This document shows positions 3,485 to 61,917 of a stretch of 64,000 bases of DNA, piece after piece. Under the pieces are notes generated by a model. That model made no database searches. It was given only the letters and a program-made list of their open reading frames with translations, and had not been told where the DNA came from. The position numbers and the translations under genes are program-made. Position 1 is the stretch's first letter. The number at the start of each line of letters is the position of its first letter. Source of the DNA: Patescibacteria group bacterium (GTDB lineage: Bacteria > Patescibacteriota > Microgenomatia > UBA1406 > GWC2-37-13); assembly GCA_026004435.1 (NCBI GenBank), contig BPJD01000002.1, positions 62,001 to 126,000 on the forward strand, in the 5' to 3' direction.

Positions 3485-3490
3485 TATAAT
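3485..3490 (+). promoter_or_regulatory. -10 box of HIT gene
   Basis: A perfect TATAAT lies seven bases before the ATG at 3498. That spacing would place transcription initiation at or next to the start codon. No Shine-Dalgarno sequence is present. No clear -35 hexamer was identified. Confidence 0.55.
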
Positions 3491-3497
3491 ACTAAAT

Positions 3498-3890: not shown

Positions 3891-3957
3891 ATCCTTTTTG
3901 GTTATACTGTATTAAAGTCATAGTGAAATTTTTGGGAAAACCTTTTATTATAAAAAA

Positions 3958-5366: not shown

Positions 5367-5368
5367 TT

Positions 5369-6646
5369 TTAGCCTTTGTTTAGAGTTGTTAAAAACTCTG
5401 CATTGGTTTTTGTTTTGGCTAATTTTTCTATCAGCACCTTAAGTCTTTCTTCAGGGTCAAGCAAAGACAGCATTCTTCTCAGGGTTGCTATCTTTGTCAG
5501 CTCTTCTGGTGTCTGCAAAAGTTCTTCTTTTCTTGTGCCTGACTTTTCTACATCAATTGCTGGAAAGATTCTTTTTTCAGCAAATTTTCTGTCTAGATGA
5601 ATCTCCATATTGCCAGTGCCTTTAAATTCTTCGTAGATCAAGTCATCCATTCTTGATTCAGTACCAATCAGGGCAGTGCCAATTATAGTTAAACTCCCGC
5701 CTTCTTCACAGTTTCTGGCTGCTCCTAAGAACTTTTTGGCAGGGTAAAGAGCTGCAGGATCCAATCCTCCAGATAAAGATCTGCCTGTATTGCCTGCTGT
5801 TAGGTTATAAGCTCTGGCAAGCCTTGTGATTGAGTCAAGCAGGATTATTACATCTTTGCCCATTTCTACGAGTCTTTTTGCTCTTTCCAAAGCTAAGTTG
5901 GCAACTCTAATCTGGTATTTTGGATTTTCATCAAAATGAGATGCAGCTACCTCTCCTTTTATTACTCTTGAGAGTTCTGTTACTTCTTCCGGTCTTTCGC
6001 CAATTAGTATGGCTATGATATGAGCTGAAGGGTGATTCTCTGCGATTGCTGCTGCCACTTCTTTAAGCAGTGTTGTTTTTCCAGCTTTAGGCTGGGAGAC
6101 AATTAATCCTCTTTGGCCAAAGCCAATGGGTGATAATAAATCTATAATTCTGGTAGAGATTATCTCGGGTTTTGTTTCAAGCTTTATTTTTCTGTTGGGA
6201 TGAATCGATGTAAGATTGTCAAAGTATGGTCTTTGTCTGCTTTGTTCTTCGTTCATCTCAACTTCATTAATTTTTTTTATCAACAGCAGGCTGTTGAATC
6301 TTTCGCCTTCTTTTGGCGGACGAGCTAAACCTTCTATTTCATCGCCTTTTCTTAACCAAAATCTTCTGATTTGTGAGTTGGATAAATAAACATCTTTGTC
6401 TGGGTTTATGCCGTAGTTTGCTCTTAAAAATCCGTACTTATTAAAGGTAATATCTAAGATGCCTTTGGTGGGGTAGCTTATCTTTAAGTCTTCTTCTAAT
6501 CTTTTTTGTTTTTCATCTATATTGTTTTCTTTTGGTTCTGTATTTAAGTCTTTTGGTTGTGGTTCTGGTTTGATTTCTTCGTCTAAAAGACTGGAGGTAA
6601 TCAAATCAACCTCATCTGGTTGCTGATCGGTTTTTTTGTTTGTCAT
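5369..6646 (-). CDS. rho: Transcription termination factor Rho
   Basis: This is a 425-residue RNA-dependent hexameric ATPase. Residues 1-50 form an acidic, low-complexity N-terminal extension. Residues about 55-130 match the RNA-binding cold-shock-like domain (GFLRANYGINPDKDVYLSNSQIRRF). The RecA-type motor follows with Walker A PKAGKTTLL near residue 187, IGERPEEVTEL, Walker B VIILLDSITRLARAYN, the Q-loop region SGGLDPAALYPAKKFLGAARN and the R-loop GTGNMEIHLDRK. It is the first gene of a rho-yidD pair. Few intrinsic terminators are visible in this window and several convergent genes overlap, which makes Rho-dependent termination likely to matter here (inference). Confidence 0.97.
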   Translation of the reverse strand: MTNKKTDQQPDEVDLITSSLLDEEIKPEPQPKDLNTEPKENNIDEKQKRLEEDLKISYPTKGILDITFNKYGFLRANYGINPDKDVYLSNSQIRRFWLRKGDEIEGLARPPKEGERFNSLLLIKKINEVEMNEEQSRQRPYFDNLTSIHPNRKIKLETKPEIISTRIIDLLSPIGFGQRGLIVSQPKAGKTTLLKEVAAAIAENHPSAHIIAILIGERPEEVTELSRVIKGEVAASHFDENPKYQIRVANLALERAKRLVEMGKDVIILLDSITRLARAYNLTAGNTGRSLSGGLDPAALYPAKKFLGAARNCEEGGSLTIIGTALIGTESRMDDLIYEEFKGTGNMEIHLDRKFAEKRIFPAIDVEKSGTRKEELLQTPEELTKIATLRRMLSLLDPEERLKVLIEKLAKTKTNAEFLTTLNKG

Positions 6647-6810
6647 AGGAATAATTAATTTGTAAAAATAAAAAAGCTGTTTGTTTCACTTCGTCTTTTC
6701 ATTATTCAGTTATATTTAAGTATTTAAACTATAGTTTCTTGTTTTGAGAAGTTAGAAACTTAAATCTTAACTAATTATATTACAGTTTTTAGTAAATGCA
6801 AATCTTTTTT

Positions 6811-6983
6811 AAAACCCTTCCGATGGGTGATTTTAAGGCTTTTCTCCAATGCTCAACGGGAAAGGGCTTTTCAAAAGTACTGCTTTTGAAACAGACCCTT
6901 CTTTCTCCAGCCTGGGCTGGAGTTACCCTAAGCTTGGATTTCGTCAAGAAAAGCCCTTTAAAGTGTCGCCCATCAGAAGGGGT
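6811..6983. ncRNA. Candidate structured RNA (family not recognised)
   Basis: The two ends of this about 173-base stretch pair over most of their length. 6811-6844 (ACCCTTC, GATGGGTGA, AAGGCTTTTC) is complementary to 6948-6983 (GAAAAGCC, TCGCCCATC, GAAGGGGT), with G-U pairs and small internal loops. Inside are a nested hairpin (AAGGG, then TTTCAAAAG-TACTG-CTTTTGAAA, then CCCTT) and a second one, CTCCAGC-CTGG-GCTGGAG. This gives a closed multibranch fold that is far richer in GC than the flanks. The strand is undetermined. It does not match RNase P, tmRNA, SRP or a rRNA signature that I can recognise. A small palindromic mobile element is the alternative. Confidence 0.5.
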
Positions 6984-7037
6984 AATTAGAGTATATCATA
7001 ATTTTTTTGTTTTAAAAATTAAGTGATATATTATTGT

Positions 7038-7043
7038 TATAAT
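7038..7043 (+). promoter_or_regulatory. -10 box before the 7050 gene
   Basis: TATAAT lies six bases before the ATG at 7050. This argues against the longer in-frame start at 7023, which would place the -10 box inside the coding region, and suggests a leaderless message. Confidence 0.55.
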
Positions 7044-7049
7044 AAATTT

Positions 7050-7538
7050 ATGGTTAAACAAACTTTTTTTATACTGTTTGGTTTGGTTTTTGTTATCGTT
7101 TCTTTTATCTCAGGCGTTAAGTACGGCAGAAGCATTGAGTTTGATGAAAGTTTGTTAAAGACATTAGCTAAGATTGAGTCTGATTTAAACAAAGAGGCTG
7201 ATCCTAATTATAGTTTCAGCAGTTTTAAAATGATTGATCTTAAAAACTGTGATCTTAAAATACTTGTGCCCGATGAAGCAGATATTTCAGCAAAAGAGGA
7301 GGCAGCAATAGTTTCTTTTAATAACAAGGAGTTGTTTCAGATAACTTGTTTTAAGGTTGAGCATAACCTGAATATTAAAACTAATACTGAGATCTCTTTT
7401 AACTCAGCTGTTGTGCCTGCCGGAGATTTTGGGGAGTTTGTTATCTTCAGCTATAAGCATCCTAATAAAAATATCTGGTATCAATTTAAAGCAGATAAAA
7501 AAGTTTTTCCTCTGCTGAATGCTGTTGAGTTTCTATGA
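7050..7538 (+). CDS. Membrane-anchored protein of unknown function
   Basis: The protein has 162 residues from the ATG at 7050. An N-terminal hydrophobic helix (FFILFGLVFVIVSFISGV) acts as an anchor or signal. The remainder is a soluble domain of about 135 residues with mixed strands and two cysteines (KNCDLKILVP and ITCFKV) that could form a disulfide outside the cell. I do not recognise a family. Its stop overlaps the fmt start (ATGA), so the two are translationally coupled, although no functional link to fmt is evident. Confidence 0.75.
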   Translation: MVKQTFFILFGLVFVIVSFISGVKYGRSIEFDESLLKTLAKIESDLNKEADPNYSFSSFKMIDLKNCDLKILVPDEADISAKEEAAIVSFNNKELFQITCFKVEHNLNIKTNTEISFNSAVVPAGDFGEFVIFSYKHPNKNIWYQFKADKKVFPLLNAVEFL

Positions 7539-49889: not shown

Positions 49890-51066
49890 TCTCAATTTCG
49901 TAAAGGTCTGGATAAGGGTTGTTGTTGTTATTAAAATTTATAAGTAAAAAAATATTTCCTCTTGGAGATGCTGAGATAAAGTTCTGTTCAAAAGGTCCAG
50001 AATATAAAACAGTTTTATTCTCACCGTCTATATCTACTACTTTAATCTGTTGATCCTCGATGAAGATAATGTGTTGAGAATCTGTGTGCCAAACAGCCTC
50101 GTTTTTAATATCTATACTTTCTAAAGGCTTAATTAAGTAGTTTTTGTCGTTTTTTTTGTCGTATATATATACTTTGCCATTTCTAATGGTTCTATTATCA
50201 AGATGATCTTGTGTTATAGGCAGGGATGGTTTTATGACTCTTGGTAGTTCTGCTGTATTTACAGCTTTGTAAAGAATCTTTGTCTCGTCTGGAGATACTT
50301 TTAGAATATCAGCGCTATTTGAAGCAATCTCTTGAAGTTCTTTAGGAAAACTTTTTATTATTAAATCTCTTTGTTTAGCTATTTCAGAACTCCAGTTAGT
50401 AGTGAGTTGTTCTTTGCTTATATTTGCAAAAATTTCCTTAGTCTTAAGATCAGCTAAGATGGTTTTATTGTTATAATCAATTAGAACTTGGGTAAAATCT
50501 GGAGATAATTTAAAGTCTAGGTTGTCCAACTGCACAGAGTTAGTGGCAAAGAGCTCTTCAATATTGAGAATGGGATCTACCTCTTTTTGCAGGGAAATAA
50601 TAGGAGACTCTAAATTAAGAAGAACTAACTCATTCTTTGTTTCAGAGTTGTTGGCATTGTCTGTTAATACTAAAAACTGTGGAACATTATCTAGTTGAAC
50701 GATCTTTTTTATTCCTAATGAGGTTAAGGGTTTCAGTCCGGGGTTTTTTGAAAAAAGATGAGCATGCAGACTTAGGACAACGCCTTGTTGCAAATTGACC
50801 TCTTTTTGCCAGTTGGTATAGCCATCAGAGGTTATTTTAATGGTATACTGGCCTGGTTGTAAGTTTATGTTTTGATCCGTAACTCCTTTAAACTGATCAT
50901 TAACAAAGATTTTGCTGGCTTTTGGCTGGGAGTTTATTGAGATAATGCCTGTTGTTGTAATTGATATATTTTCAGAATCAAATCTGTATCCCTTTGCAAA
51001 AAGAACGAACGCTATTAAAGTTGTTAAAAAAATAATTAATATTAAAACTCTATATAATCTTCTCAT
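49882..51066 (-). CDS. PEGA domain membrane-anchored protein
   Basis: 394 residues. Signal-anchor (VLILIIFLTTLIAFVLFA), then a PEGA domain (GIISINSQPKASKIFVNDQFKGVTDQNINLQPGQYTIKITSDGYTNWQKEVNLQQG, residues about 40-95). The remainder is beta-rich, propeller-like repeats such as VSPDETKILYKAV and WHTDSQHIIFIEDQ (TolB-like). Such proteins usually bind cell-wall or surface components outside the membrane. Divergently transcribed from mreB with only 34 bp between them. Tail-to-tail overlap of 8 bases with the sortase gene. Confidence 0.75.
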   Translation of the reverse strand: MRRLYRVLILIIFLTTLIAFVLFAKGYRFDSENISITTTGIISINSQPKASKIFVNDQFKGVTDQNINLQPGQYTIKITSDGYTNWQKEVNLQQGVVLSLHAHLFSKNPGLKPLTSLGIKKIVQLDNVPQFLVLTDNANNSETKNELVLLNLESPIISLQKEVDPILNIEELFATNSVQLDNLDFKLSPDFTQVLIDYNNKTILADLKTKEIFANISKEQLTTNWSSEIAKQRDLIIKSFPKELQEIASNSADILKVSPDETKILYKAVNTAELPRVIKPSLPITQDHLDNRTIRNGKVYIYDKKNDKNYLIKPLESIDIKNEAVWHTDSQHIIFIEDQQIKVVDIDGENKTVLYSGPFEQNFISASPRGNIFLLINFNNNNNPYPDLYEIEIN

Positions 51067-51100
51067 AGAATTTATATTATACTATATAATACTACATAGT
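51067..51100. promoter_or_regulatory. Overlapping divergent promoters, PEGA gene and mreB
   Basis: Only 34 bp separate the two ATGs. TATAAT at 51085-51090 points right (10 bases before mreB) and a TATAAT read leftward lies about 8 bases before the PEGA ATG. The DNA is nearly palindromic (TATATTATACTATATAAT), so the two -10 boxes overlap and the two genes may compete for polymerase. Confidence 0.55.
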
Positions 51101-52108
51101 ATGTTTTTTAATTATAAACTTGGCATTGATCTTGGAACAGCTAATGTTCTTATTTACTTAGAGAAAAAAGGGATTGTCTTAAATGAGCCAACAGTAGTTG
51201 CCTATAGGATAGATAATAAAGAAGTTCTGGCGGTTGGCAATGAGGCTAAAGAAATGTTGGGCAGAACTCCAAATAATATTGTAGCAGACCGGCCCTTGCG
51301 TGATGGTGTAATAGCTGATTATAAGATTACCTCAGCTATGATTAGATACTTTTTAAAAAAGGCATTAGGCAGAGGTTTTTTATCTGATGTAATGATTTCT
51401 ATTCCTGGGGGTGCATCACAGGTAGAAAAAAGAGCAGTCGTTTCAGCCTGCAAACAGGCTGGAGCAAAAAATGTTTATCTTATTGAAGAGCCCTTAGCTG
51501 CTGCTATTGGAGCTGGTTTGCCGATTTCTGAACCTTCGGGAAATATGATTGTTAATCTTGGAGGTGGAACATCAGAGATTGCCATAATATCGCTTGGTCA
51601 GTTAGTTGCTTATAAGACTGTAAGAGTTGGTGGAACAAAGTTAGACTTGGCAATAATGGAGTATTTGAGAAAAGAAAAGAATTTCTTAATTGGCGAAAGA
51701 ACTGCTGAGGAGATAAAGATGAAGATAGGTACAGCGTTTATAGAGGATGAAACTGAGTTAAAAAAAATAGAGGTTAAGGGTCGTGATTTTTATACTGGAC
51801 TGCCAAAAACCATAGAGATTTCAGAAGATGAGATAAAAAAGGCTTTAGATAAAAACTTAAAAACGATTTTAGATGGTGTGAAATCGGTCTTAGGACAATC
51901 TCCTCCTGAGTTGTCTGCAGATATTGTTGAAAAGGGGATTGTTTTGTCAGGTGGGTCAGCAATGCTTGGTAATATTGATAAATTTATATCATACTATACT
52001 GGAGTTCCTGCATTTGTGGTAGAGGATCCTTTATTTTGTGTCATCAAAGGTATTGGGATTATTGTTGAACATTTAGATAGTTATAAAAAATCAATATTAA
52101 GCTCATAG
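51101..52108 (+). CDS. mreB: Rod-shape-determining actin homologue MreB
   Basis: 335 residues from the ATG at 51101 (MFFNYKLGIDLGTANVLIYL). The open frame continues upstream to 50912, but there it runs through the divergent PEGA gene. Actin-like motifs are present: phosphate 1 GIDLGTANVLIY, connect 1 around RRAVVSACKQAGAKNVYLIEEPLAAAIGAGL, phosphate 2 IVNLGGGTSEIAI, and adenosine GIVLSGGSAMLGNID. MreB filaments position cell-wall synthesis and give rod shape. mreC/mreD are not next to it. Confidence 0.97.
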   Translation: MFFNYKLGIDLGTANVLIYLEKKGIVLNEPTVVAYRIDNKEVLAVGNEAKEMLGRTPNNIVADRPLRDGVIADYKITSAMIRYFLKKALGRGFLSDVMISIPGGASQVEKRAVVSACKQAGAKNVYLIEEPLAAAIGAGLPISEPSGNMIVNLGGGTSEIAIISLGQLVAYKTVRVGGTKLDLAIMEYLRKEKNFLIGERTAEEIKMKIGTAFIEDETELKKIEVKGRDFYTGLPKTIEISEDEIKKALDKNLKTILDGVKSVLGQSPPELSADIVEKGIVLSGGSAMLGNIDKFISYYTGVPAFVVEDPLFCVIKGIGIIVEHLDSYKKSILSS

Positions 52109-52297
52109 TCTGTAGAATAGTGTTGCCGTTTTTTAGTATTAGCTTAGAATTTAAAAGATTTTTTTAATTTTTTTTTTAATTATTTGCTAAGTGTATAATA
52201 AATAAATTTATTTTAAGTTTGTGTTTAAATAAAAATAAAAAAATATTTAATTTTTTGAACAAAGATAATGGTTTATCAAATTATTAGTGTTTGATTT

Positions 52298-53077
52298 ATG
52301 TTTAAAACATTAATTGAAACATTTTCTTGTCTGAAACAAAACAACTTTTTAAGCAAGTACGAAGATATCCTATATTTAATTAACAAAGGAGATAAAACTG
52401 TCAACAAATTTATCCATGTTGTATCTATTAATCCAGAGATTATAGTCTTATCTGTTTTTAATCCAGAGTTTAGAAAGGTTATTCTAAAGGCAGATTTTTT
52501 GATAGCAGATGGAGTAGGGGCAGTTATAGCAGCTAGAATTCTTTATGGAGTTAGGTTAAAAAGAATAACAGGGTCTGATTTATTAAAAAAAACATTGAGT
52601 TTTGCTAATTTTGGTAGCTTTAGAGTTTTATTAATTGGAGGCAGGCCTAATTTAGCAGATAAGATTTCTAATTGCTATAATAAAAAATTTAAAAAACATT
52701 TTTGTTTTGGAATTGAAGGAATAAAAGATATAAAAAATATAAAAAAAGAAGAGATTAATAATATAAAAGCTATAGTTGCCGATTTTAAGCCTCATATTGT
52801 TTTTTTGGCTTTTGGTTCTCCTAATCAGGAATTATTTGCTTTTAAGTATCAAGATTTGTTTAATAGCTGTGTTGTTGTAGGAGTTGGCGGTGGCTTTGAT
52901 TATATTGGTAAAGTTGTTCCCAGAGCTCCAAGATTTATGCGAAGGTATGGTTTGGAGTGGTTTTTTAGATTAATAATACAACCGAAAAGATTCTTTAGAC
53001 AAATGCGGATTGTGCTTTTTCTTTTTTTTGTTTTTATCTTATTTTTATATGGTTTTTATAAACGAGTATTTAATTAA
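52298..53077 (+). CDS. WecG/TagA/CpsF-type glycosyltransferase (GT26)
   Basis: 259 residues. Conserved family features: VVSINPEIIVLSVFNPEFRKVILKADFLIADGVGAVIAA (D in DGVG), RITGSDLLKK, and IVFLAFGSPNQELF, GVGGGFDYIGKVVPRAPRFMRRYGLEWFFRLIIQPKRF. The family transfers ManNAc-type sugars onto undecaprenyl-linked GlcNAc. In this protein the C-terminus ends in a hydrophobic helix, which could tether it to the membrane. Directly followed, without a gap, by a nucleotidyltransferase-fold gene, presumably of the same glycan pathway. Confidence 0.92.
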   Translation: MFKTLIETFSCLKQNNFLSKYEDILYLINKGDKTVNKFIHVVSINPEIIVLSVFNPEFRKVILKADFLIADGVGAVIAARILYGVRLKRITGSDLLKKTLSFANFGSFRVLLIGGRPNLADKISNCYNKKFKKHFCFGIEGIKDIKNIKKEEINNIKAIVADFKPHIVFLAFGSPNQELFAFKYQDLFNSCVVVGVGGGFDYIGKVVPRAPRFMRRYGLEWFFRLIIQPKRFFRQMRIVLFLFFVFILFLYGFYKRVFN

Positions 53078-53983
53078 ATGAGATTCAAAGAAATTGTTAT
53101 CTCAGAATTGGTTTACTGGCAGTTTTATAACTATTTTCCTACGACAGTAGAGTTGTGGTTGGTTTTACCCTTTAAGGTAGATTATTCTAAGTTCCTGTCT
53201 AAGATTAGGCAGATAAATGGTATTTCTTTGGTAAATGATGCTGGTGAGTTTAGAGTTGTGCTTAATAAATATAAAAAGACATTTTTTCAGTTCTTAAAAA
53301 AACAGAGAATCTTTAAGTTAAAAACAAGCCAGTTGAGGTTAAAGTATTTTTTAATTTTAGCTCAAAGGTTAGGCTTTGTTTCTTTAATTGGTCTTTCTGG
53401 ATCATTAGCTTATGGCATAGCTAAAGAATCTGATGATTTTGATCTGTTTATCATAACTAAGGAGAATAGATTATGGCTTTCTAGGTTTTTATTAAATGTA
53501 TTTGCTTTTATGTTATGCCTTAAAAGAAAGAGAAAAGTAAAACTGGCAAAAGATAAAGTTTGTCTAAATCTTTTTTTTGATCTTAAGTCTTTAGGTATTG
53601 CCAAGTCTAAGCAAACTGAGTTTGTGGCAAGGGAGATTATTAATCTAAAGGTTTTATATGACGAAAACAAGACTTGGTTTAAGTTTGTACAAAATAACAA
53701 ATGGGTTTTTAGCTACTTTCCTAATTTTAAGACTTGGTTTTATAGCGCTTGGCATAAAAAATATAATGAAAATAAAAAAAGAGAACAAGGAATGGTTTTT
53801 AAATTAATTTTTGATTATCTAAATTTAATTTTAGGCAAAGTTCAATTGCTAAAAATTAAGTTAAATAAATTAAATAAAGAAAGAATTCTTAAGTATCAGC
53901 TTTGGTTTCATCCTGATGATTTTGAGACAAAGTATATTAGTTTAAGAAATAGAGCTTTAAGGCTTTCTAAAGATTCTTATTAG
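53078..53983 (+). CDS. Nucleotidyltransferase-fold protein of unknown specificity
   Basis: 301 residues. The motif SLIGLSGSLAYGIAKESDDFDLFIIT (about residues 103-128) has the G-S and D-x-D pattern of the DNA polymerase beta nucleotidyltransferase superfamily, and CLNLFFDL may supply the third carboxylate. A basic region and C-terminal helices follow. The start is immediately after the TagA-type gene stop, indicating translational coupling. Overlaps the convergent gene by 4 bases. Role in glycan modification is a guess; such proteins could adenylylate or uridylylate an acceptor. Confidence 0.6.
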   Translation: MRFKEIVISELVYWQFYNYFPTTVELWLVLPFKVDYSKFLSKIRQINGISLVNDAGEFRVVLNKYKKTFFQFLKKQRIFKLKTSQLRLKYFLILAQRLGFVSLIGLSGSLAYGIAKESDDFDLFIITKENRLWLSRFLLNVFAFMLCLKRKRKVKLAKDKVCLNLFFDLKSLGIAKSKQTEFVAREIINLKVLYDENKTWFKFVQNNKWVFSYFPNFKTWFYSAWHKKYNENKKREQGMVFKLIFDYLNLILGKVQLLKIKLNKLNKERILKYQLWFHPDDFETKYISLRNRALRLSKDSY

Positions 53984-54435
53984 AGTTTGTAGTTGTTAGA
54001 TATGATCGTTTTTGTTATAAAAAGCAAGATTAAAAAGATGGTACTACCGAATAAACAAGGTGATAAGAAAGGTGTTTTTATAAAACTGCTTCCACAAGAA
54101 TTATAGTTGTTTTTTGTATAAAAAGTTATGAACTCTAGTAAAACATTGCTCCAGCCAAACACATTGGCACCAATTAAACTTAAGTAAAAGTATCTGAGTT
54201 GTTTGAGTTTGTTTTTGCTTCTTTTAATGTGATTAAACCAAATTAAAAAAAATATGAATCCTAAAAGACCTAAAAAACAAGGAGTTAATATGGGATTATT
54301 AATAATAACACCCTTTAATTTCAGTATTGTTTTTTCATTTTTGTAAAAAAACAGCAAGTCGTTTAAGAATGTACTGCCTGCTATTGTAATGCCTAATATT
54401 AGCAAGATTTGAATTAGTTTTGATTTGTTTTTCAT
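53980..54435 (-). CDS. Small four-helix membrane protein
   Basis: 151 residues with four hydrophobic helices (about 8-28, 50-68, 83-103, 125-145) and a repeated CFLGLLGF / CLFGSTIF motif in the second and last helices. Two cysteines occur in the extracellular loop NSCGSSFIKTPFLSPC. The two halves look similar (ILTPCFLG and FLSPCLFG), suggesting an internal duplication. No family recognised. Confidence 0.55.
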   Translation of the reverse strand: MKNKSKLIQILLILGITIAGSTFLNDLLFFYKNEKTILKLKGVIINNPILTPCFLGLLGFIFFLIWFNHIKRSKNKLKQLRYFYLSLIGANVFGWSNVLLEFITFYTKNNYNSCGSSFIKTPFLSPCLFGSTIFLILLFITKTIISNNYKL

Positions 54436-54557
54436 ATAGTGTGTTTATTAACTTTGTAAGTTAAAAAGTAATTAAGAGACTGTCTTTGTAAATTATAGCA
54501 TTAAGATATAAAAGCTGTTAAAAAGTTTTTGATAGAAAAGTGGCAGATAGGATTTTA

Positions 54558-55145
54558 TTAACGGGCTTGGCGGCAAATTCTATTTCGTCGCAACCGCTTC
54601 GATAAAAGCCGATTTATATTTGTGATAAACTTTAGTTTTTCTGTCATGTATTCTTTTGTAAAGAAATGCTGGACATGGCCCTTTTTATACATATTTTCAC
54701 CAACTTTTTTACCTTTACCAAAAAGTGCATCATCAGTAGATTTACATTTTACAAAAATCAAACCGCCCTTCTTCAAAACTTTATACAAGTTGTCGAAAAT
54801 CTTGCTTGTGGTTTTATCATCAAAATAATGCAAACTTAAGTGGGCATAAATTACAACAAAAGAATTTTCTGGAAAATTGATATTTCGAATGTCTTTCAGA
54901 ATACAATTTATTCTATTTTTTATTCTATTTTGTCGAGTTTTTAATTTTTCGATTCCGCTTTTTGAAAAATCAACTGCCGTTACCTTTAATCCTTTATTGG
55001 CAAAATAAATTGAATCCCTTCCGTCTCCGCAACCCAAATCTAATAAAGACCGACAATTCTTAGCTTTAATCAACTTGAACCCACACTTAGCAAACTCTTT
55101 TTTCAACTGGCGGTGTGTATTTGAAAAAATCCGAACCGATTTCAT
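54558..55145 (-). CDS. SAM-dependent methyltransferase with chimeric, probably truncated N-terminus
   Basis: 195 residues from the ATG at 55145; the longer frame to 55229 reads only through repeat DNA. The Rossmann core LLDLGCGDGRDSIYFANKGLKVTAVDFSKSGIEKL is intact, as are DIRNINFPENSFVVIYAHLSLHYF and the GGLIFVKCKS strand; it belongs to the TehB/Methyltransf_25 class. Residues 1 to about 13 (MKSVRIFSNTHRQ) are encoded by the left arm of the 116-bp inverted repeat, so element insertion seems to have replaced the native 5' end. The last residues are also read from a repeated GGCTTGGCGG sequence. Function is uncertain and may be lost. Confidence 0.6.
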   Translation of the reverse strand: MKSVRIFSNTHRQLKKEFAKCGFKLIKAKNCRSLLDLGCGDGRDSIYFANKGLKVTAVDFSKSGIEKLKTRQNRIKNRINCILKDIRNINFPENSFVVIYAHLSLHYFDDKTTSKIFDNLYKVLKKGGLIFVKCKSTDDALFGKGKKVGENMYKKGHVQHFFTKEYMTEKLKFITNINRLLSKRLRRNRICRQAR

Positions 55146-55219
55146 TAACGGGCTCGGCGGGCGGAATTCCCCCCGAACCCCCTTTCCGCCCGCCTCGCCC
55201 AAAAGCGGAAGCGAAAAGG
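55104..55219. repeat. 116-bp inverted repeat, left arm
   Basis: Matches the reverse complement of 57977-58092 with only two mismatches seen (AAAAGCGG against TGAAGCGG). It contains the hairpin GGGCGGAA/TTCCGCCC and at its outer edge CAACTGGCGG, the candidate recombination core. The two arms enclose the complete restriction-modification gene set. Confidence 0.9.
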
Positions 55220-55290
55220 ACGATTTCAAGTTTTTCTAATCCGCCTTTGGCGGATTGCTCGACTCTGCCGAGCTTGGCGGCAAATTATTT

Positions 55291-55707
55291 TTAATTTTTA
55301 CGCTTTCCCGAAAGAAAAGCAACTATTTTATCAATCGCCTTATCTGGCTTTTTTAGTAATTCATGCTCCCAAACCCTTAAAATTTTCCAACCCTTACTTT
55401 TTAATTCTTTTCTATAAAGTTTATCTCTTTCAATATTTCTCTCAATTTTAGCTAACCAATATTTTCGAGAGAGGCGTTGTTTTAATTTTGAAAATCGATA
55501 TCCGTGCCAAAAATCTCCATCAATAAAAATTGCTTTTCTTTTGCTTGGCAACGCTATATCTGGATTTCCAATTGCTTTTTTATAATGTTTTTGGAAATAG
55601 ACCTTCCTTTTTTTTAACTCTCTAAAAACCAGTCTTTCTACTTTAGTATTTTGTGAGCGGATTTTTGACATAATCTCGCCCCGCTTCTTTTTTGTGAATT
55701 TGTCCAT
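55291..55707 (-). CDS. vsr: Very-short-patch repair endonuclease Vsr
   Basis: 138 residues. Features of the Vsr family: RGEIMSKIRSQNTKVERLVFRELKKR at the N-terminus, catalytic region GNPDIALPSKRKAIFIDGDFWHGY (Asp in PDIAL, His in FWHG), and WLAKIERNIERDKLYRKELKSKGWKILRVWEHEL. It nicks beside T:G mismatches made when 5-methylcytosine deaminates in the methylase's target. It overlaps the methylase gene by 65 bases in another frame. Last gene of the restriction operon. Confidence 0.95.
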   Translation of the reverse strand: MDKFTKKKRGEIMSKIRSQNTKVERLVFRELKKRKVYFQKHYKKAIGNPDIALPSKRKAIFIDGDFWHGYRFSKLKQRLSRKYWLAKIERNIERDKLYRKELKSKGWKILRVWEHELLKKPDKAIDKIVAFLSGKRKN

Positions 55708-56728
55708 ACAAAGAATCCTGTTTTATAGTATTCAAAAATTCTTGCAAATCATATTTGATCTTTACTGCAAGGTGGCGTGCAAACTCAACAGGTACAGCAT
55801 TGCCGACCATTTTATAGCCATCAGCAACATTTTCGTATTTGAATATAAAATCATCTGGGAATGTTTGTATTCTAGCACATTCCCGCACAGAAAGACGGCG
55901 ATATAAATGTTCTTTTCCGGGAACAAAAATCCTTTTATTTTGCTCAATAAACTTCATCTTGGGGGCTTGCGGGTGTATTGGGGCATGCCTTCCGCCAGCT
56001 TGAATTGTAAAAGAAGGTTCATCCCAAGAACGAACCCTGTTTCTTGACATATAGATAGTAGAAAAACCTCCGTTCATATATTCGTGATTGGGGGCATTTA
56101 AATCCTTGCTTGGATTTGCTCTGTTATAAGATTTTGCTGGTTTAGCTGGCTTATCTTTCCATAAATCCCAAATAGCATCTTTAAGTACTGGGCGTTTTGG
56201 GGACTTAGGAGGAAATTGGAAAATTTTTCCTAATTTTTTATGATACCCAACAATAATCACTCTTCTTCTATCTTGAGGAACATCATAATCGTGGGCGTTT
56301 AACAAGGCGTAATTAACATTGTAATTTAGGCTTTTAAATTGACTCAAAATTTCTTGGAATGCTTCCCTATGACGGGGCAAAAGCATTCCCGACACATTCT
56401 CGGCAAGAAAAAATAGGGGCTTTTTGTCTTTCAAAACTCTTATATATTCATAAAAAAGTTGTCCGCGCCTATCTTTTATTCCTCGTCCGGCCCCGGCCTC
56501 GCTCCAACTTTGGCAAGGTGGTCCACCGATAATTCCAACCCCATCCGGTATTTCAGATGAAGGAATATCAACAATGCTCCTTTTATCTAATTTTACTTTT
56601 GGAAAATTGTGCTCAAATGTTGACCAAATTGTTCTGTCAAATTCATTTGCCCAAATAATCTCAAAGCCGGCTTTTTCAAAACCCAAGTCTAAACCTCCTG
56701 CGCCTGTAAATAAAGATACTAATTTCAT
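55643..56728 (-). CDS. DNA (cytosine-5-)-methyltransferase of the restriction system
   Basis: 361 residues with the ordered C5-MTase motifs. I: LVSLFTGAGGLDLGFEKAG. IV: GGPPCQSWSEAG with catalytic Cys72. VI: FLAENVSGML. VIII: QDRRRVIIVGY. X: MVGNAVPVEFA near the end. The target-recognition region lies at about residues 180-290. Given the NgoPII-type endonuclease next to it, the predicted target is GGCC. Starts 1 base after the endonuclease stop. The product would protect host DNA and create the lesions that Vsr repairs. Confidence 0.96.
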   Translation of the reverse strand: MKLVSLFTGAGGLDLGFEKAGFEIIWANEFDRTIWSTFEHNFPKVKLDKRSIVDIPSSEIPDGVGIIGGPPCQSWSEAGAGRGIKDRRGQLFYEYIRVLKDKKPLFFLAENVSGMLLPRHREAFQEILSQFKSLNYNVNYALLNAHDYDVPQDRRRVIIVGYHKKLGKIFQFPPKSPKRPVLKDAIWDLWKDKPAKPAKSYNRANPSKDLNAPNHEYMNGGFSTIYMSRNRVRSWDEPSFTIQAGGRHAPIHPQAPKMKFIEQNKRIFVPGKEHLYRRLSVRECARIQTFPDDFIFKYENVADGYKMVGNAVPVEFARHLAVKIKYDLQEFLNTIKQDSLYGQIHKKEAGRDYVKNPLTKY

Positions 56729-56729
56729 A

Positions 56730-57605
56730 TTATTTACTGAATTTAATAAGCTTTGCGTCTAATAGTTTTGCGGGATTATTTGGCGACTTAATTTTTATGT
56801 CGTTTATTGCAAAATTAAAATTTGAAATGTTTTCAAGTTGTTTTCTGTCTTTCTCAGGGAACAAATCATATTTGTCTTTTCTCATCAATGCAAATAAATG
56901 AAACTTTTCTTTGTCCTCTATTTTGCAAAAGTCCTTATATACAATTAGCGGGTTTTGGATTTGCCACATCCCTCTAATTCTTAACTCCGTAATTCCTAAC
57001 GGGTCGACTCTTTTAACCTTTCCGATCTCAACTGTTTCCCCTTTTTCCAAACCAAGAGAATCTATAACAGAATCGACTTCTTTCTTGATTGGCTCGTGAA
57101 CTTTATCATATACGCTATGATCTGCCGCATAGCATGTTCCCTGTATAAAAAATAAATATTTTATTTTTCCGCCCCTAACGTGCCCGATTACATAAAATAG
57201 GTCTTTTGCTTCCCATTTATTTGCCTCGCAATTTCTACAAGCATTAGTTATCCTTTTATCGCTAGATAACAATCGATCTTTTGGTGGAGAACTATTTAAT
57301 GCTAAAGAAGAAGTTGGACTTTCAATCTTTTTTATTTCAAAAGCATCGCCATTTTTAATAATCATGTCTGGCGGATTGTTCTGATTTCCTAGATACGAAA
57401 ATACTTTTGAATAAGAATACTCTTTTTTAGTGTGTGGCAGGTTTAAAGAATTCGCGATAGCGTCTTTTATATAAAACTCCAGCTGTTCGCCAACTGCGTT
57501 TATTCTTATGAGATAAGTGGACGCATAATTTTTCAAGTCAAATGAGCCAAACGATATGATGTTGGCAATTGCAGTCAAAATATTATTAGTAATTTTTAGA
57601 TTCAT
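56730..57605 (-). CDS. Type II restriction endonuclease, NgoPII family (predicted GGCC)
   Basis: 291 residues. The PD-(D/E)xK nuclease core is FSYLGNQNNPPDMIIKNGDAFEIKKIES, with Asp80, Glu90 and Lys92. Family landmarks include LALNSSPPKDRLLSSDKRITNACRNCE and DPLGITELRIRGMWQIQNP near residues 212-230. Both match what I know of NgoPII-type enzymes, which cut GGCC. All catalytic residues are in place, so the enzyme is probably active. Second gene in the C-R-M-V operon, 4 bases after the controller gene. Confidence 0.9.
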   Translation of the reverse strand: MNLKITNNILTAIANIISFGSFDLKNYASTYLIRINAVGEQLEFYIKDAIANSLNLPHTKKEYSYSKVFSYLGNQNNPPDMIIKNGDAFEIKKIESPTSSLALNSSPPKDRLLSSDKRITNACRNCEANKWEAKDLFYVIGHVRGGKIKYLFFIQGTCYAADHSVYDKVHEPIKKEVDSVIDSLGLEKGETVEIGKVKRVDPLGITELRIRGMWQIQNPLIVYKDFCKIEDKEKFHLFALMRKDKYDLFPEKDRKQLENISNFNFAINDIKIKSPNNPAKLLDAKLIKFSK

Positions 57606-57609
57606 AATT

Positions 57610-57816
57610 TTATTTTATTAACTCCTCAATATTTACTCTTAATGCTTTCGCAATTTTCGCCATTACTAAAACCGATGGCTTCTTTATTACTCCACTTTCA
57701 ATTTTTGTCAGGGTAGTGTATTTGACGCCGGATTTTTTAGCAAAATCTTCCTGCGACAAGCCTTGCTTTGTACGGTATTTTTTTATGTTTTCTCCAATGT
57801 TATTTTCTCTTGCCAT
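57610..57816 (-). CDS. XRE-family controller protein of the restriction system
   Basis: 68 residues from the ATG at 57816 (MARENNIGENIKKYRTKQGLSQEDFAKKSGVKYTT). The longer frame to 57858 would overlap the operator. One helix-turn-helix spans residues about 20-41 (LSQEDFAKKSGVKYTTLTKIES). The size and position match C proteins that delay restriction enzyme expression until DNA is methylated. The operator candidate at 57841-57860 lies just upstream. Confidence 0.88.
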   Translation of the reverse strand: MARENNIGENIKKYRTKQGLSQEDFAKKSGVKYTTLTKIESGVIKKPSVLVMAKIAKALRVNIEELIK

Positions 57817-57840
57817 ATTTTCAATAATTTGATAGTATGT

Positions 57841-57860
57841 TATTGTTAGTATTAACAATA
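57841..57860. promoter_or_regulatory. Palindromic operator of the restriction operon (C-box candidate)
   Basis: TATTGTTAGTATTAACAATA is a perfect 8+4+8 palindrome. TTGTTA within it can act as -35 for the leftward operon, with TACTAT (plus 57832-57837) as -10. On the other side TATAAT (57872-57877) could serve rightward transcription. Confidence 0.65.
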
Positions 57861-57976
57861 CCTGCTTTCAATATAATGATAACAAATAAAAGTAAAACAA
57901 TCAAGAAAAAGAAAAGCCCGCTTCTGGCCAAAATAAAGTTCGAGCCGACATTTTTTTCAGGTTCTTTGGCGGTTTG

Positions 57977-58092
57977 CCTTTTCGCTTCCGCTTCAGGGCG
58001 AGGCGGGCGGAAAGGGGGTTCGGGGGGAATTCCGCCCGCCGAGCCCGTTAATGAAATCGGTTCGGATTTTTTCAAATACACACCGCCAGTTG
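57977..58092. repeat. 116-bp inverted repeat, right arm
   Basis: Reverse complement of 55104-55219. It overlaps by 10 bp (CCGCCAGTTG, 58083-58092) with the 87-bp repeat arm that follows. This arm lies within the MITE-like unit. Confidence 0.9.
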
Positions 58093-58169
58093 GTAAATCC
58101 CCTTGCTGGCTCGCCCTCTGCGAGGGCTCGCCAGCCGATTTTAGGCGCAAAATTGAATTTTTTGTCTTT
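58083..58169. repeat. 87-bp inverted repeat, left arm
   Basis: Perfect reverse complement of 59585-59671. It contains the strong hairpin GCTGGCTCGCCCTC-TGC-GAGGGCTCGCCAGC (58105-58135) and starts with the core CCGCCAGTTGG. Recombinase gene 58223-59722 lies between the two arms. Confidence 0.9.
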
Positions 58170-58222
58170 GTTTTGCAAAGCAAAACGCCAGAAGCGGGCT
58201 TTTCTAAATTAAATTTAGAATT

Positions 58223-59722
58223 ATGAAATACTTTATCTATTGCAGAAAATCAACAGATAGTGAGGAAAGGCAAGTTTTAAGTATTGAAGCTCAGCTTGCT
58301 GAGCTAAAAGAATTTGCCGCCAAAGAAAAACTTGAAATCGTCGCCTCGCTTTGCGAGGCGCAAACCGCCAAAGAACCTGGCCGAAAGATTTTCGGAGAAA
58401 TGTTAGACCGGATTTGTGCTGGCGAAGCCAGCGGAATTTTAGCTTGGCATCCCGATAGGTTAGCTCGTAATTCCATAGACGGCGGAAAAATAATTTACTT
58501 GCTGGACACAGGAAAACTGCTTGATTTGAAATTCCCTACTTTTTGGTTTGAGAATACGCCACAGGGAAAATTTATGCTTTCAATCGCTTTCGGACAGAGC
58601 AAGTACTATGTTGACAATCTTTCAGAAAACATCAAAAGGGGACACCGCCAAAAACTGCGAAAAGGAATTTGGCCCAGCTTCGCGCCGCTTGGCTATCTCA
58701 ATAATCACAGAACAAAAGAAATTGATCTAGACAAAGAAAAAGCGCCATTTATCAGAAAAGCGTTTGAACTTTACGCTACCGGCGACTACACGCTAAAAGC
58801 CATAAAGCAGTTTTTGGCTGACAGCGGGATAAAAAGCTACCGCAACAAACCTCTTTCCGTTTCCTGTGTCCAGCGAATGCTTAAAAATCATTTCTACTAC
58901 GGCGTTTTCAAATTCAACGGCGAAATTTATCAAGGAACACACGAGCCAATTATTTCCAAGAAACTTTTTGATTCTGTTCAACAAGCGATGAATAATAGAG
59001 GCAAGAAAAAAAGGAAAAGAAAGCATGAATTTGCTTTTTCTGGATTTATGCGTTGCGGGAACTGCGGCTGTGTGATAACCGCCGAAAAACAAAAAGGACA
59101 TAACTATTACCGATGCACCAAGAAAAAGCAAAAATGCGAGGAAAAGTATTTAAGGGAAGAAAACCTTGTTGAACAGATGAGAAATTTTATTCAAAAAGTT
59201 TCTTTGCCTGACGACTGGGCAGAAAATATGCTTGCCGAGTTAGACAAAGAAAAAGAGCAAGCTAAAAAAGAAAGCGAGCTAGTTGTTCAAAATCTCCGCC
59301 AGCAAAAAGCCGAAGTTGAGCAGAAAATTGAAAAACTATTAGACCTTTACATTGCCGGCGGCGCTTTAACACTTGAGGAATATCAAGCCAAAAAACAAAA
59401 ACTGCTCAACGAGAAACTGGATATTGAGCAGAAAATAAAAGATTTTGAACAATCGGGAAATAATTGGCTCGAACCGATGAAGAAAATGATTTTTGAAGCA
59501 AAACAAGCCAAAATTCTATTGTCGCAGGGCGACAATTATCAAATCCGGGAATTTCTAAAAAATGTCGGCTCGAACTTTATTTTGAAAGACAAAAAATTCA
59601 ATTTTGCGCCTAAAATCGGCTGGCGAGCCCTCGCAGAGGGCGAGCCAGCAAGGGGATTTACCAACTGGCGGAGGAGGTGGGATTCGAACCCACGCCTCGG
59701 AATTTACCCGAGAACGGTTTAG
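58223..59722 (+). CDS. Large serine recombinase (site-specific integrase)
   Basis: 499 residues. Resolvase domain with catalytic Ser10 in YCRKST, then AWHPDRLARNSIDGGKI and the Recombinase domain around residues 150-250. A zinc ribbon (MRCGNCGCV...YYRCTKKKQKC) lies near residues 275-305, then a long coiled coil (about 330-430). The natural family end is around KNVGSNFIL; the rest (RRRWDSNPRLGIYPRTV) reads through the inverted repeat into the antisense of tRNA-Ser(GCT), so the C-terminus is chimeric. Codon use and GC are unlike the neighbours. Probably moves the island into or out of the tRNA 3' end. Confidence 0.92.
   Translation: MKYFIYCRKSTDSEERQVLSIEAQLAELKEFAAKEKLEIVASLCEAQTAKEPGRKIFGEMLDRICAGEASGILAWHPDRLARNSIDGGKIIYLLDTGKLLDLKFPTFWFENTPQGKFMLSIAFGQSKYYVDNLSENIKRGHRQKLRKGIWPSFAPLGYLNNHRTKEIDLDKEKAPFIRKAFELYATGDYTLKAIKQFLADSGIKSYRNKPLSVSCVQRMLKNHFYYGVFKFNGEIYQGTHEPIISKKLFDSVQQAMNNRGKKKRKRKHEFAFSGFMRCGNCGCVITAEKQKGHNYYRCTKKKQKCEEKYLREENLVEQMRNFIQKVSLPDDWAENMLAELDKEKEQAKKESELVVQNLRQQKAEVEQKIEKLLDLYIAGGALTLEEYQAKKQKLLNEKLDIEQKIKDFEQSGNNWLEPMKKMIFEAKQAKILLSQGDNYQIREFLKNVGSNFILKDKKFNFAPKIGWRALAEGEPARGFTNWRRRWDSNPRLGIYPRTV
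59585..59671. repeat. 87-bp inverted repeat, right arm
   Basis: Second arm, inverted relative to 58083-58169. Its last bases overlap the 3' end of the tRNA-Ser gene, where the discriminator and CCA are encoded. Confidence 0.9.
59661..59671 (-). other. Candidate attachment-site core at the tRNA-Ser 3' end
   Basis: CCGCCAGTTGG (minus strand) combines the last tRNA bases CC, discriminator G, CCA and then GTTGG. The same core occurs at 58083-58093 (opposite orientation) and, 10 of 11 bases, at 55104-55113 (same orientation). This fits an attachment core left by site-specific integration at the tRNA end. Confidence 0.6.
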
Positions 59723-59757
59723 CAAACCGTCGCCTTTGACCACTCGGCCACTCCTCC
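59666..59757 (-). tRNA. tRNA-Ser (GCT)
   Basis: Minus-strand class II tRNA: acceptor GGAGGAG/CTCCTCC, anticodon loop TTGCTAA (anticodon GCT, codons AGC/AGU), a long variable arm (TCTCGGGTAAATTCCGAGG) and T arm GTGGG-TTCGAAT-CCCAC. Discriminator G at 59669. It carries a full CCA at 59668-59666, unlike the other five tRNAs here. The recombinase gene overlaps its 3' half on the opposite strand. Confidence 0.96.
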
Positions 59758-59843
59758 TATTGCATATTTTATATTATTTTAATCTAATTTGGAAATTAAG
59801 ATAGCAATATTTTATAATATACTTGTCTAGTATAGTAGTTTTT

Positions 59844-59917
59844 GTCCCTATAGTTCAACTGGATAGAACATCAGGTTGCGGACCTGAAGGTTGGAGGTTC
59901 AAATCCTCCTAGGGACG
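59844..59917 (+). tRNA. tRNA-Arg (GCG)
   Basis: Acceptor GTCCCTA/TAGGGAC, D stem GTTC/GAAC, anticodon stem TCAGG/CCTGA with loop TTGCGGA (anticodon GCG, codons CGC/CGU), T arm GGAGG-TTCAAAT-CCTCC. Discriminator G followed by CA. Most bacteria use ACG (inosine) for this box. Confidence 0.93.
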
Positions 59918-59925
59918 CAGTTTAA

Positions 59926-59998
59926 GGGCGCGTGGCGTAACTGGTAGCGCAGCGGTCTCCAAAACCGCAGGTTGCAGGTTCGAGTCCTGCCGCGCCTG
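59926..59998 (+). tRNA. tRNA-Trp (CCA)
   Basis: Acceptor GGGCGCG/CGCGCCT (first pair G-U), D stem GCGT/GCGC, anticodon stem GCGGT/ACCGC with loop CTCCAAA (anticodon CCA), T arm GCAGG-TTCGAGT-CCTGC. Discriminator G then CA. Trp is decoded as UGG, in keeping with the standard code. Confidence 0.95.
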
Positions 59999-60006
59999 CA
60001 GAAACA

Positions 60007-60097
60007 GGAAGGATGCCGGAGTGGACGAACGGGCTCGCCTGGAGAGCGAGTTTCCGAAATAAAATTCGGAACGGGGGTTCGAATCCCCCTCCTTCCG
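60007..60097 (+). tRNA. tRNA-Ser (GGA)
   Basis: Class II cloverleaf: acceptor GGAAGGA/TCCTTCC, anticodon stem CTCGC/GCGAG with loop CTGGAGA (anticodon GGA, codons UCC/UCU). Variable arm TTTCCGAAATAAAATTCGGAAC, T arm GGGGG-TTCGAAT-CCCCC. Discriminator G then CA. Confidence 0.95.
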
Positions 60098-60102
60098 CAC
60101 AA

Positions 60103-60175
60103 GGTGGTTGTAGCTCAATGGTAGAGCACCAGCCTGTGGAGCTGGGTGTTGCGGGTTCGAGTCCCGTCAGCCACC
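60103..60175 (+). tRNA. tRNA-His (GTG)
   Basis: Starts with the extra G-1 (60103) opposite C73 (60175), diagnostic of tRNA-His. Acceptor GTGGTTG/CAGCCAC, anticodon stem CCAGC/GCTGG with loop CTGTGGA (anticodon GTG), T arm GCGGG-TTCGAGT-CCCGT. Followed by CA. Confidence 0.95.
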
Positions 60176-60195
60176 CATAACTTGAGTTCTTAATT

Positions 60196-60201
60196 TATAA
60201 T
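60196..60201 (+). promoter_or_regulatory. -10 box of mscS
   Basis: TATAAT six bases before the ATG at 60208, predicting a leaderless transcript. No Shine-Dalgarno sequence. Confidence 0.5.
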
Positions 60202-60207
60202 AAAATT

Positions 60208-60744
60208 ATGTTTCCAGATGCATTTTTTTCTAGCATTAATGTAAATCTCCTTTTGGATAGTAAAATGCTTAAATTAACAGTTATTTTTTTACTTTCAGTC
60301 TTTGTTTATAAAATATTCTCAGGATTTGTCGTCAGAACAGTCTTTGGTTTGGCTTATTCAAGCATAAAGCAGGAATCAAAGAAAAAGAAGATTAAAACAG
60401 TGATGGTTTTATTTAACAACATCATAAAAACAACAGTAATTATTATTTCCTCAATTATAATACTTGATATTTTAGGTTTTAATATAACTCCGCTGATAAC
60501 AGGAGCTGGTATATTTGGATTAGCAGTTTCGTTTGGTTCTCAGTCTATCGTAAAAGATGTTGTCTCAGGAATTTTTATAATTCTTGAGAATCAAATAAAT
60601 GTAGGAGATTATATTAAAATAGGCAACTATGAAGGTAAAGTAAAGGAGATTACTTTAAGATCTACTTATCTATTAGATAAAGATAAAAACCTAATTATTA
60701 TTCCTAACTCTCAGATTAGTTCAATTATTAAATACCATAAGTAA
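60208..60744 (+). CDS. mscS: Small-conductance mechanosensitive channel (MscS family)
   Basis: 178 residues, shorter than E. coli MscS (286). Two to three helices precede the pore helix and its lining GLAVSFGSQSIVKDVVSGIFIILENQINVGDYIKIG, the MscS core signature. The beta domain VKEITLRSTYLLDKDKNLIIIPNSQISSI follows, and the larger C-terminal portal domain is absent. Opens on membrane tension to release solutes. Its stop overlaps the next ATG by one base. Confidence 0.92.
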   Translation: MFPDAFFSSINVNLLLDSKMLKLTVIFLLSVFVYKIFSGFVVRTVFGLAYSSIKQESKKKKIKTVMVLFNNIIKTTVIIISSIIILDILGFNITPLITGAGIFGLAVSFGSQSIVKDVVSGIFIILENQINVGDYIKIGNYEGKVKEITLRSTYLLDKDKNLIIIPNSQISSIIKYHK

Positions 60745-61031
60745 TGAAGTCCTTAAAAAGCATTTTAAAAGGGTTTGATCCAACAAAAAATAAGTATATT
60801 TCAAGGGAGTTTCAGTCTTATGGTATTTATCTTGCAGAAACTTTGGGTGATTGGAGAAAAAAAAGTTTATATATCAAGTTGGCAAAAACTTTACCAAGAG
60901 CAGTATTAGAGAAAGCCTTAAGTTTTGTAAAAGACTCTAACGCTGATAATAAAGCTGCATTATTTATGTGGAAGCTTAAACAAATGGGTGCTTTTAAAGG
61001 GAAGAAAGCATCAAAAGATAAAACAACTTGA
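60744..61031 (+). CDS. Small conserved-looking protein of unknown function
   Basis: 95 residues (MKSLKSILKGFDPTKNKYISREFQSYGIYLAETLGDWRKKSLYIKLAKTLPRAVLEKALSFVKDS...). Basic, helical, no membrane segment. I cannot assign a family. Its codon structure is clean and it is coupled to mscS by a TAATG overlap. The last residues are a Lys-rich tail. Confidence 0.65.
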   Translation: MKSLKSILKGFDPTKNKYISREFQSYGIYLAETLGDWRKKSLYIKLAKTLPRAVLEKALSFVKDSNADNKAALFMWKLKQMGAFKGKKASKDKTT

Positions 61032-61056
61032 CAAATATTTTTTTCTTGTTAATAAT
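61028..61056 (+). promoter_or_regulatory. Promoter of the glutaredoxin-like gene
   Basis: TTGACA (61028-61033), 17-base spacer, AATAAT (61051-61056). The -10 ends six bases before the ATG at 61063 and lies downstream of the previous stop. Confidence 0.6.
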
Positions 61057-61062
61057 TTAGAT

Positions 61063-61917
61063 ATGCAAGTAACAATTTATACAGTACCATATTGCAACTT
61101 TTCACAACAAGAAAAAGATTATTTGTTAGGTAAAGGTATAGCCTTTATTGAAAAAAATTTAGAAGAAAATCCTGCATATTTGGATGAGATGCTTAAAGTG
61201 TCAAACAACTTCGCTGGAACACCTGTAACTGTTATAGCTAAAGATGATGGTTCTCAGGTTGTTGTCAAAGGTTTTAATCAACAAGAAATAGATGCAGCAT
61301 TAGGAGGATATACAGGTCCTAGTTTAGTAGGAAATTTTGCTGCTGGATCAGATCAGGGTAGTATTAACCAGCAAGTAAACAATCAAACTACAGTTCAGAC
61401 TGTAGCACAAAATCAGGATCAGAATGTACAACCTGCTCAGGCAAGTGCTCAGTCAGATGAGATTGCTGGAGCAGGACAGCAGACTTCGGCTGATACTCTG
61501 TCAGACCAGATAATGTCAGTTTTGCAGGGTCAGGATAATTCTGGAAGTTCAATAGATGAGAAAATAAATCAGGTGCCGTCGGCAGCTGTTTCAAGTCAGC
61601 AACAGAGTGTTACCCAAGATGTTTCAGGAGCTATTAATCAACAACAGTTTCAGGCAGCAAATACCCAATCTAATGACAATACAGCTCAATCTGCACAGCA
61701 AAGTGAAACAACACAACAAGTTGAAGGCAGTACCAGTGACAGTCCCGAGGCATCACAGGCTGGCTCTGATTTACAGAGTTTGTTAAATAAATTAAACTCT
61801 GTTAATCAAGGTGGCTCCAATCAGCCTGGTCAGGTTTCTGGCAGTTCTAATCAACAGCAGCAATCAACTGCTCCACAAGCTACAGGAGATTTGCCTGATT
61901 TTAATAAAAACTCATAA
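61063..61917 (+). CDS. Glutaredoxin-like domain with Q/S-rich low-complexity tail
   Basis: 284 residues from the ATG at 61063. Residues 1-80 have the thioredoxin-like fold of glutaredoxins: VTIYTVPYCNFSQQEKDYLLGKGI with one active cysteine (YCNFS, so CxxS monothiol type) and the cis-proline loop GTPVTVI. Residues about 90-284 are disordered-looking repeats of Gln, Ser, Asn and Gly (QQSETTQQVEGSTSDSPEA). No signal peptide. The N-terminal part may reduce or glutathionylate proteins, or act on other thiols with the trxB-like enzyme in this window; the tail is unusual and its function unknown. Confidence 0.75.
   Translation: MQVTIYTVPYCNFSQQEKDYLLGKGIAFIEKNLEENPAYLDEMLKVSNNFAGTPVTVIAKDDGSQVVVKGFNQQEIDAALGGYTGPSLVGNFAAGSDQGSINQQVNNQTTVQTVAQNQDQNVQPAQASAQSDEIAGAGQQTSADTLSDQIMSVLQGQDNSGSSIDEKINQVPSAAVSSQQQSVTQDVSGAINQQQFQAANTQSNDNTAQSAQQSETTQQVEGSTSDSPEASQAGSDLQSLLNKLNSVNQGGSNQPGQVSGSSNQQQQSTAPQATGDLPDFNKNS

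Follow-up and report, generated by a model that had tools for sequence, protein, structure and literature searches.

Introduction

Serine integrases of the Listeria LI/A118 type, the closest described counterparts of the element analyzed here, combine Resolvase, Recombinase and zinc-ribbon domains, use one short core and accrete in tandem at one site; the zinc-ribbon (ZD) motif of the bacterial attachment site (attB) is located 5 bp nearer the centre than that of the attachment site of the element (attP) (Rutherford et al. 2013, PMC3783163). The same features recur in a family of large serine recombinase elements, one member of which lies in a 64,000-nucleotide stretch of contig BPJD01000002.1 (hereafter the window) from a Patescibacteria group bacterium. 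Between the cargo and the recombinase gene of this member there is a 296-bp unit (57910-58205); its central part repeats, in inverted orientation, the junction predicted for the circular form of the same element. Genome comparisons identify the unit as a fixed part of serine recombinase elements that occur across the candidate phyla radiation (CPR) and insert at the 3′ ends of tRNA genes, and we think it probable, at roughly 0.55, that the unit is an internal attP doubling as a control region. The family differs from the LI/A118 type in its predicted internal inverted attP copy, in the use of tRNA 3′ ends of many isotypes as targets, in having the tRNA T-arm at the position of the attB motif, and in the use of the 3′ coding end of the recombinase gene as the right (R) arm.

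Autoregulated integrase promoters that overlap att sites have been described in a case of a tRNA-linked tyrosine integrase, intS of KplE1 (PMC2951348). As in the present family, an att site lies upstream of the integrase gene, which is compatible with autoregulation. In KplE1 this site is a real attL and the enzyme a tyrosine integrase, whereas in our family the 3′ end of the recombinase gene faces the tRNA gene and it is a putative copy of attP that is located upstream.

In integrons, a recombinase gene stands beside a recombination site (attI/Pc) with a promoter for swappable gene cassettes. The family described here likewise has its recombinase gene next to a putative recombination site with a predicted promoter and carries swappable cargo, but its enzyme is a serine recombinase and not the tyrosine recombinase IntI, its cargo lies between inverted sites, it has no apparent attC sites, for which no dedicated search was made, and it inserts at tRNA genes. 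In the circle junctions of IS911 and IS2, a −35 hexamer from one end and a −10 hexamer from the other form a promoter; here, the joined junction would be stored permanently in the integrated element, pointing at the cargo. The yeast 2-micron plasmid has its FRT recombination sites within inverted repeats, as would the circle predicted for our family, with two such sites; unlike this plasmid, the family is integrative, uses a serine recombinase and has yielded no inversion isomers among the elements seen.

A literature search (subscription papers and preprints lay outside its scope) revealed no relevant paper on CPR serine recombinases or on internal attP copies, and the papers found describe no counterpart of an internal attP copy evolving in concert with the ends of its element. 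Gene movement among CPR bacteria is little known; the data outline a widespread vehicle whose cargo ranges from single genes to operons (restriction-modification [R-M] systems, methyltransferases, transporters and others), together with a simple rule for locating its ends. We describe the architecture of these elements, their distribution, target and empty site, the attP-type spacing of their motifs and the concerted evolution of their arms.

Architecture of the element and its insertion site

The genome of the window (G000) was compared with a genome of the same genus that carries the empty site (G009). In the empty locus (G009:C3, L177), positions 1385-5810 match window positions 50000-54435 and positions 5817-7474 match 59667-61304. 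Only 6 bp separate these matching flanks, and the intervening 5.2 kb of G000 is therefore an insertion at the 3′ end of a tRNA-Ser(GCT) gene (Table 1). The insertion comprises the newest element (55104-59671) and a truncated methyltransferase gene of an older element, the open reading frame (ORF) of which spans 55104-55113, where the newer element's core cuts off the 5′ end; an intact relative is present in L052. The domains of the recombinase, the precise insertion in attB with a short core and the motif offset described below are those of a large serine recombinase integrative element.

The order of parts is core-L-cargo-[T-b′-Y′-L′-core′-R′-T′]-recombinase-R-core-tRNA, with the unit in brackets and L denoting the left arm. 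The recombinase ORF continues through the R arm and the core into the tRNA-Ser gene, antisense to it, and the R arm contributes the final base of the CCA end of the tRNA. The X region at the start of the cargo has 19-bp matches to the N-terminal coding sequence of the recombinase, and X pairs are found in other elements too. A search for known RNA families in the region returned tRNAs only.

The unit itself is bounded by perfect 19-bp inverted repeats, exactly as an earlier note on this DNA had described it. It contains an 87-bp inverted copy of the recombinase 3′ end and a 116-bp inverted copy of the left-end arm, which overlap at 58083-58092. When reverse-complemented, it reads R-core-L, i.e. 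the 3′ end of the recombinase gene, the core GCGG at the tRNA end and the left end of the element, so that the integrated element would keep a complete inverted attP between cargo and recombinase. These long arms had been recorded in the earlier note as arms of two other inverted repeats but had not been identified. The note was correct in that 5′ and 3′ pieces of the recombinase gene are joined as they would be after an internal deletion (L-QTAKEP-KNVGSN), although these pieces are 20 bp (QTAKEP) and 28 bp (KNVGSN) long and not 19 and 27 bp. The repeats of the unit all greatly exceed what chance would produce, and their arrangement was found again in dozens of other genomes. It is unlikely that the architecture is an assembly artefact, since the same layout is present in dozens of separate assemblies.

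Table 1. Features of the insertion in the window (positions count from the first nucleotide of the window)
Feature	Position	Strand	Basis or remark
Whole insertion: newest element and remnant of an older one	54436-59666		Empty site in G009:C3 (L177)
Remnant of older tandem element: methyltransferase gene	54558-55229	−	Pfam Methyltransf_25
Site S3: left-end core CAACTGGCGG, minimal core GCGG at 55110-55113	55104-55113	+	
Left-end L arm: putative attP-type half-site, GC-rich palindromes	55104-55219	+	98% inverted copy in unit
X region: inverted recombinase 5′ coding piece broken by hairpins; cargo start	55220-55287	+	
Cargo: Vsr, C5 DNA methyltransferase, NgoPII-type endonuclease, helix-turn-helix (HTH; Xre/C-protein-like) regulator	55291-57858	−	Pfam
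Outer inverted repeat T of unit	57910-57928	+	
b: inverted copy of recombinase 59557-59584, with TCGGCTCGAAC motif	57929-57956	−	
Y: inverted copy of recombinase 58360-58379	57957-57977	−	
L arm in unit, core included	57978-58092	−	
Site S2: minimal core CCGC within unit (predicted internal inverted attP copy)	58083-58086	−	L/R overlap
R arm in unit: 100% inverted copy of 59585-59671	58083-58169	−	
17-bp palindrome separating R arm and T′	58170-58186		
Outer inverted repeat T′ of unit, within recombinase leader	58187-58205	−	
Large serine recombinase	58223-59722	+	Pfam Resolvase, Recombinase, Zn_ribbon_recom, above cut-offs
Right-end R arm, within recombinase 3′ coding end	59585-59671	+	Inverted repeat; empty site
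Target tRNA-Ser(GCT); site S1 core GCGG at 59668-59671	59666-59757	−	ARAGORN

Distribution and targets of the family

The R pair was present in 74 of 86 evaluable recombinase relatives with a recombinase identity of at least 43%, and in none of the five below this value. These loci are labelled mostly as CPR groups; the few other labels may reflect misbinning. The unit occupies the same place in the same orientation even with recombinases of down to about 43-50% identity, which is at odds with the one-off local scar considered in the earlier note, its spacing from the recombinase start is fairly constant across the 74 loci, and its orientation is identical in all intact elements seen. The family elements are related, and the counts given here and below are therefore not independent; moreover, contigs often stop within the arms, which hides many copies. 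Sequence is the basis throughout. Searches for the recombinase in phages, plasmids or viral contigs gave only distant matches or two fragments.

In almost every element for which both arms were located, the junction within the unit equals the joined right and left ends. The core of the unit, mostly a 4-nt overlap in the other elements, matches the tRNA gene used: GCGG for Ser, GTGC for many Leu, Arg and Tyr, GCTC for Asn, and others. A called tRNA gene (14 isotypes) abuts the 3′ end of the recombinase gene in 57 of 81 elements, and none of the 81 has a tRNA gene at the unit core. It is the central core that would form the ends of the element, and not the 19-bp repeats.

The spacing of sequence motifs within the arms points to the nature of the two partner sites. 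The motif CGAAC occurs at +18 from the core boundary in the L arms of 44 of 59 elements, and the T-arm motif of the tRNA at +13 from the core; the offset between the two is 5 bp in 35 of 42 cases. This matches the displacement of the ZD motif between attP and attB, so that the L arm looks like an attP half-site and the T-arm of the tRNA like its attB counterpart, and the unit would hold a complete attP. A T-arm serving as attB half-site, together with a core at the tRNA 3′ end, would explain how many tRNA genes can be used by one recombinase family. With their predicted attP/attB pairs, recombinases that target the 3′ ends of tRNA genes could also serve as useful tools.

Concerted evolution of the arms

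The unit arms and the ends of the same element undergo concerted evolution. In 35 elements with clean boundaries, the mean identity between the unit and the element's own ends was 0.985 for R and 0.994 for L (medians 1.0), in comparison with only 0.52-0.60 for the arms of different elements whose recombinases are 40-65% identical. The 25-nt spacer adjacent to the core had its best match in the element's own unit in 29 of the 35 elements.

The short inverted pairs T, b and X behave like the arms. The b pair differs on average at 2 of 28 positions within an element versus 16 between elements, and the T pair at 1.5 of 20 versus 12.6; the between-element values are overestimates, since the windows are partly out of register across elements, and the within-element means lean low, since only cases passing the mismatch cut-off were counted.

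A predicted promoter at the unit core

We scored σ70-like promoters over all registers and spacings and on both strands in 54 elements (maximum score 12). In the best register, which straddles the unit core and reads from R to L towards the cargo, the −35 hexamer lies in R (−21 to −16) and the −10 hexamer in L, with a spacer of 17. The mean score of this register was 6.5, 31 of the 54 elements reached at least 8, and z was 4.6 relative to the other registers; one large subgroup has a strong promoter of this kind. A promoter-like site on the minus strand of the window (57904-57876) adjoins the HTH gene and may serve the cargo in place of the core promoter.

Proposed role of the internal copy

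Regulation by the unit, as we infer it, would work in the following way. The recombinase would bind the internal attP, which lies about 100-145 bp ahead of the start of its gene, and such binding would control the divergent region; in the main subgroup, binding at the core (−35 in R, −10 in L) would switch the transcription of the cargo, and binding at the unit could also give autorepression. The internal attP copy makes clear predictions.

There are several points that weigh against this interpretation: (i) regulation alone does not explain the 100% identity in the non-motif part of the arms, for which reason we assume that gene conversion between the inverted repeats would keep them identical, (ii) the window's own tRNA-Ser subgroup has only a weak core promoter (6 of 12) and the Lys/Tyr subgroup none (1-2 of 12), (iii) the elements with the promoter come largely from one related subgroup and hence are not independent, (iv) no promoter directed at the recombinase gene was found consistently at one position, and (v) in the G051 element, the recombinase of which is intact and the assembly circular or tandem, the unit is without core and R arm, which speaks against a strict need for the complete unit.

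The earlier note proposed a miniature inverted-repeat transposable element (MITE), i.e. a non-autonomous mobile element with the 19-bp repeats as its ends, in line with the terminal inverted repeats and the deletion-like QTAKEP/KNVGSN joint. We give this idea almost no credence: in 72 family genomes, no full-length copy was found apart from a recombinase gene, the near-full-length ones (G000, G009:C1:237167-237458 and a shortened one in G051) are all located directly upstream of it, all other matches are single L or R arms located at the ends of elements, and even divergent elements carry the unit in one position and orientation. We thus regard the unit as a structural component, neither a MITE nor a one-off scar. 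It also seems very unlikely that the unit is part of an invertible switch, in which exchange between the unit core and an end core, between T and T′ or at X would flip segments and turn the recombinase or the cargo on and off. The inverted cores and the inverted T, X and b pairs exist, the right-arm end of L010 and L047 faces the cargo as after T/T′ exchange, and L090 and L060, whose cargo runs straight into the recombinase gene near codon 29, the start being lost, resemble X exchange products with a headless recombinase. Such products destroy the N-terminus of the recombinase and therefore look like decay; the tRNA gene, where called, is at the recombinase end and never at the unit core, and the orientation of the unit is constant in the intact elements seen. 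No isomers with a flipped unit or recombinase module were found among the 81 elements.

A passive relic is possible, though in our estimate unlikely. The unit would then have no function of its own and would mark where a recombinase module (R-rec-R′) was fused head to head, in the distant past, with a carrier (L-Y-b-T′-cargo-X-L′) derived from an internally deleted recombinase copy, and its identity with the ends would result only from sequence exchange between nearby inverted repeats. The same recombinase parts make up both modules in circularly permuted order, inverted repeats commonly undergo gene conversion, and collapsed derivatives are known (the R.R′ palindrome of G009, L159, and the fusions at X in L090 and L060). 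Since palindromes are unstable, a relic should be lost often; yet 74 of the 86 loci keep the unit at a fairly constant spacing, and the promoter register across it is conserved in one subgroup. We are doubtful of a role as splint, in which the unit, on single-stranded DNA (e.g. following uptake by transformation), would pair with both ends simultaneously (L with L′, R with R′) and keep them together as a duplex attP, allowing the element to circularise without an excision factor while the arms become homogenised as the folded DNA is repaired. The unit is exactly complementary to the joined ends, tRNA-specific core included, the arms are homogenised along their full length, and no shared excision factor is apparent in 47 elements, since no gene apart from the recombinase was seen to be conserved among them. 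On the other hand, the single-stranded stage is hypothetical and the circular-looking G051 element has lost the core and R arm of its unit. A version in which the copy is both splint and template, so that each cycle would rewrite copy and ends to identity, with the junction acting also as cargo promoter, is likewise improbable. An internal attP that also acts as a control region is the interpretation that we prefer.

Cargo and derived islands

The cargo of the 47 elements with both arms differs widely (0.5-6 kb). Pfam matches include R-M systems, DNA methylases, HTH regulators, an SDR dehydrogenase, a Na/Ca exchanger and others, and many cargo ORFs are without a listed match; no conserved gene other than the recombinase was seen in these 47 elements. 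The ORF closest to the unit usually reads away from it. We considered the T repeats as operators of Xre regulators, but only 10 of 75 scanned cargo proteins match HTH_3, and T pairs are also present in elements without an HTH gene.

At another tRNA-Ser gene, G009 carries a tandem array that opens with a recombinase element containing type I R-M cargo; in the second element the recombinase module is collapsed to an R.R′ palindrome next to NUDIX/RibD cargo, and a remnant follows. Judging by gene content and arm positions, without full alignment, both cargos are apparently found at contig ends in G000. One island (L010, G000:C2:185840-191170) is a type I R-M island without recombinase at a different tRNA-Ser gene, with cargo of the type seen in the first element of the array, and its right end consists of T, a hairpin and a degraded R arm. 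The other (L009, G000:C6:83100-86503) has NUDIX, RibD-like and HTH genes beside a recombinase 3′ remnant; its contig stops just past the core, which indicates that the G000 assembly breaks at these repeats.

Within the recombinase coding sequence of the window, a small palindrome (GCCTCGCTTTGCGAGGC; 58343-58360) separates the X piece from the Y piece and resembles a collapsed L′.L joint, like the joint in L159. In L164, the stretch from T′ to X apparently holds about 840 bp of different sequence, perhaps a second cargo, in place of the 5′ part of the recombinase gene. The contig G029:C102 (6066 bp) has matches to part of the L arm, inverted, at both extreme ends, as if a single cargo module had been severed at its L arms. 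In G051, a whole contig (L044, G051:C1, 4636 bp) corresponds to one element, whose ends overlap exactly over 51 bp and which has an R.core.L joint; it is a candidate excised circle or tandem copy, both of which would give the same overlap.
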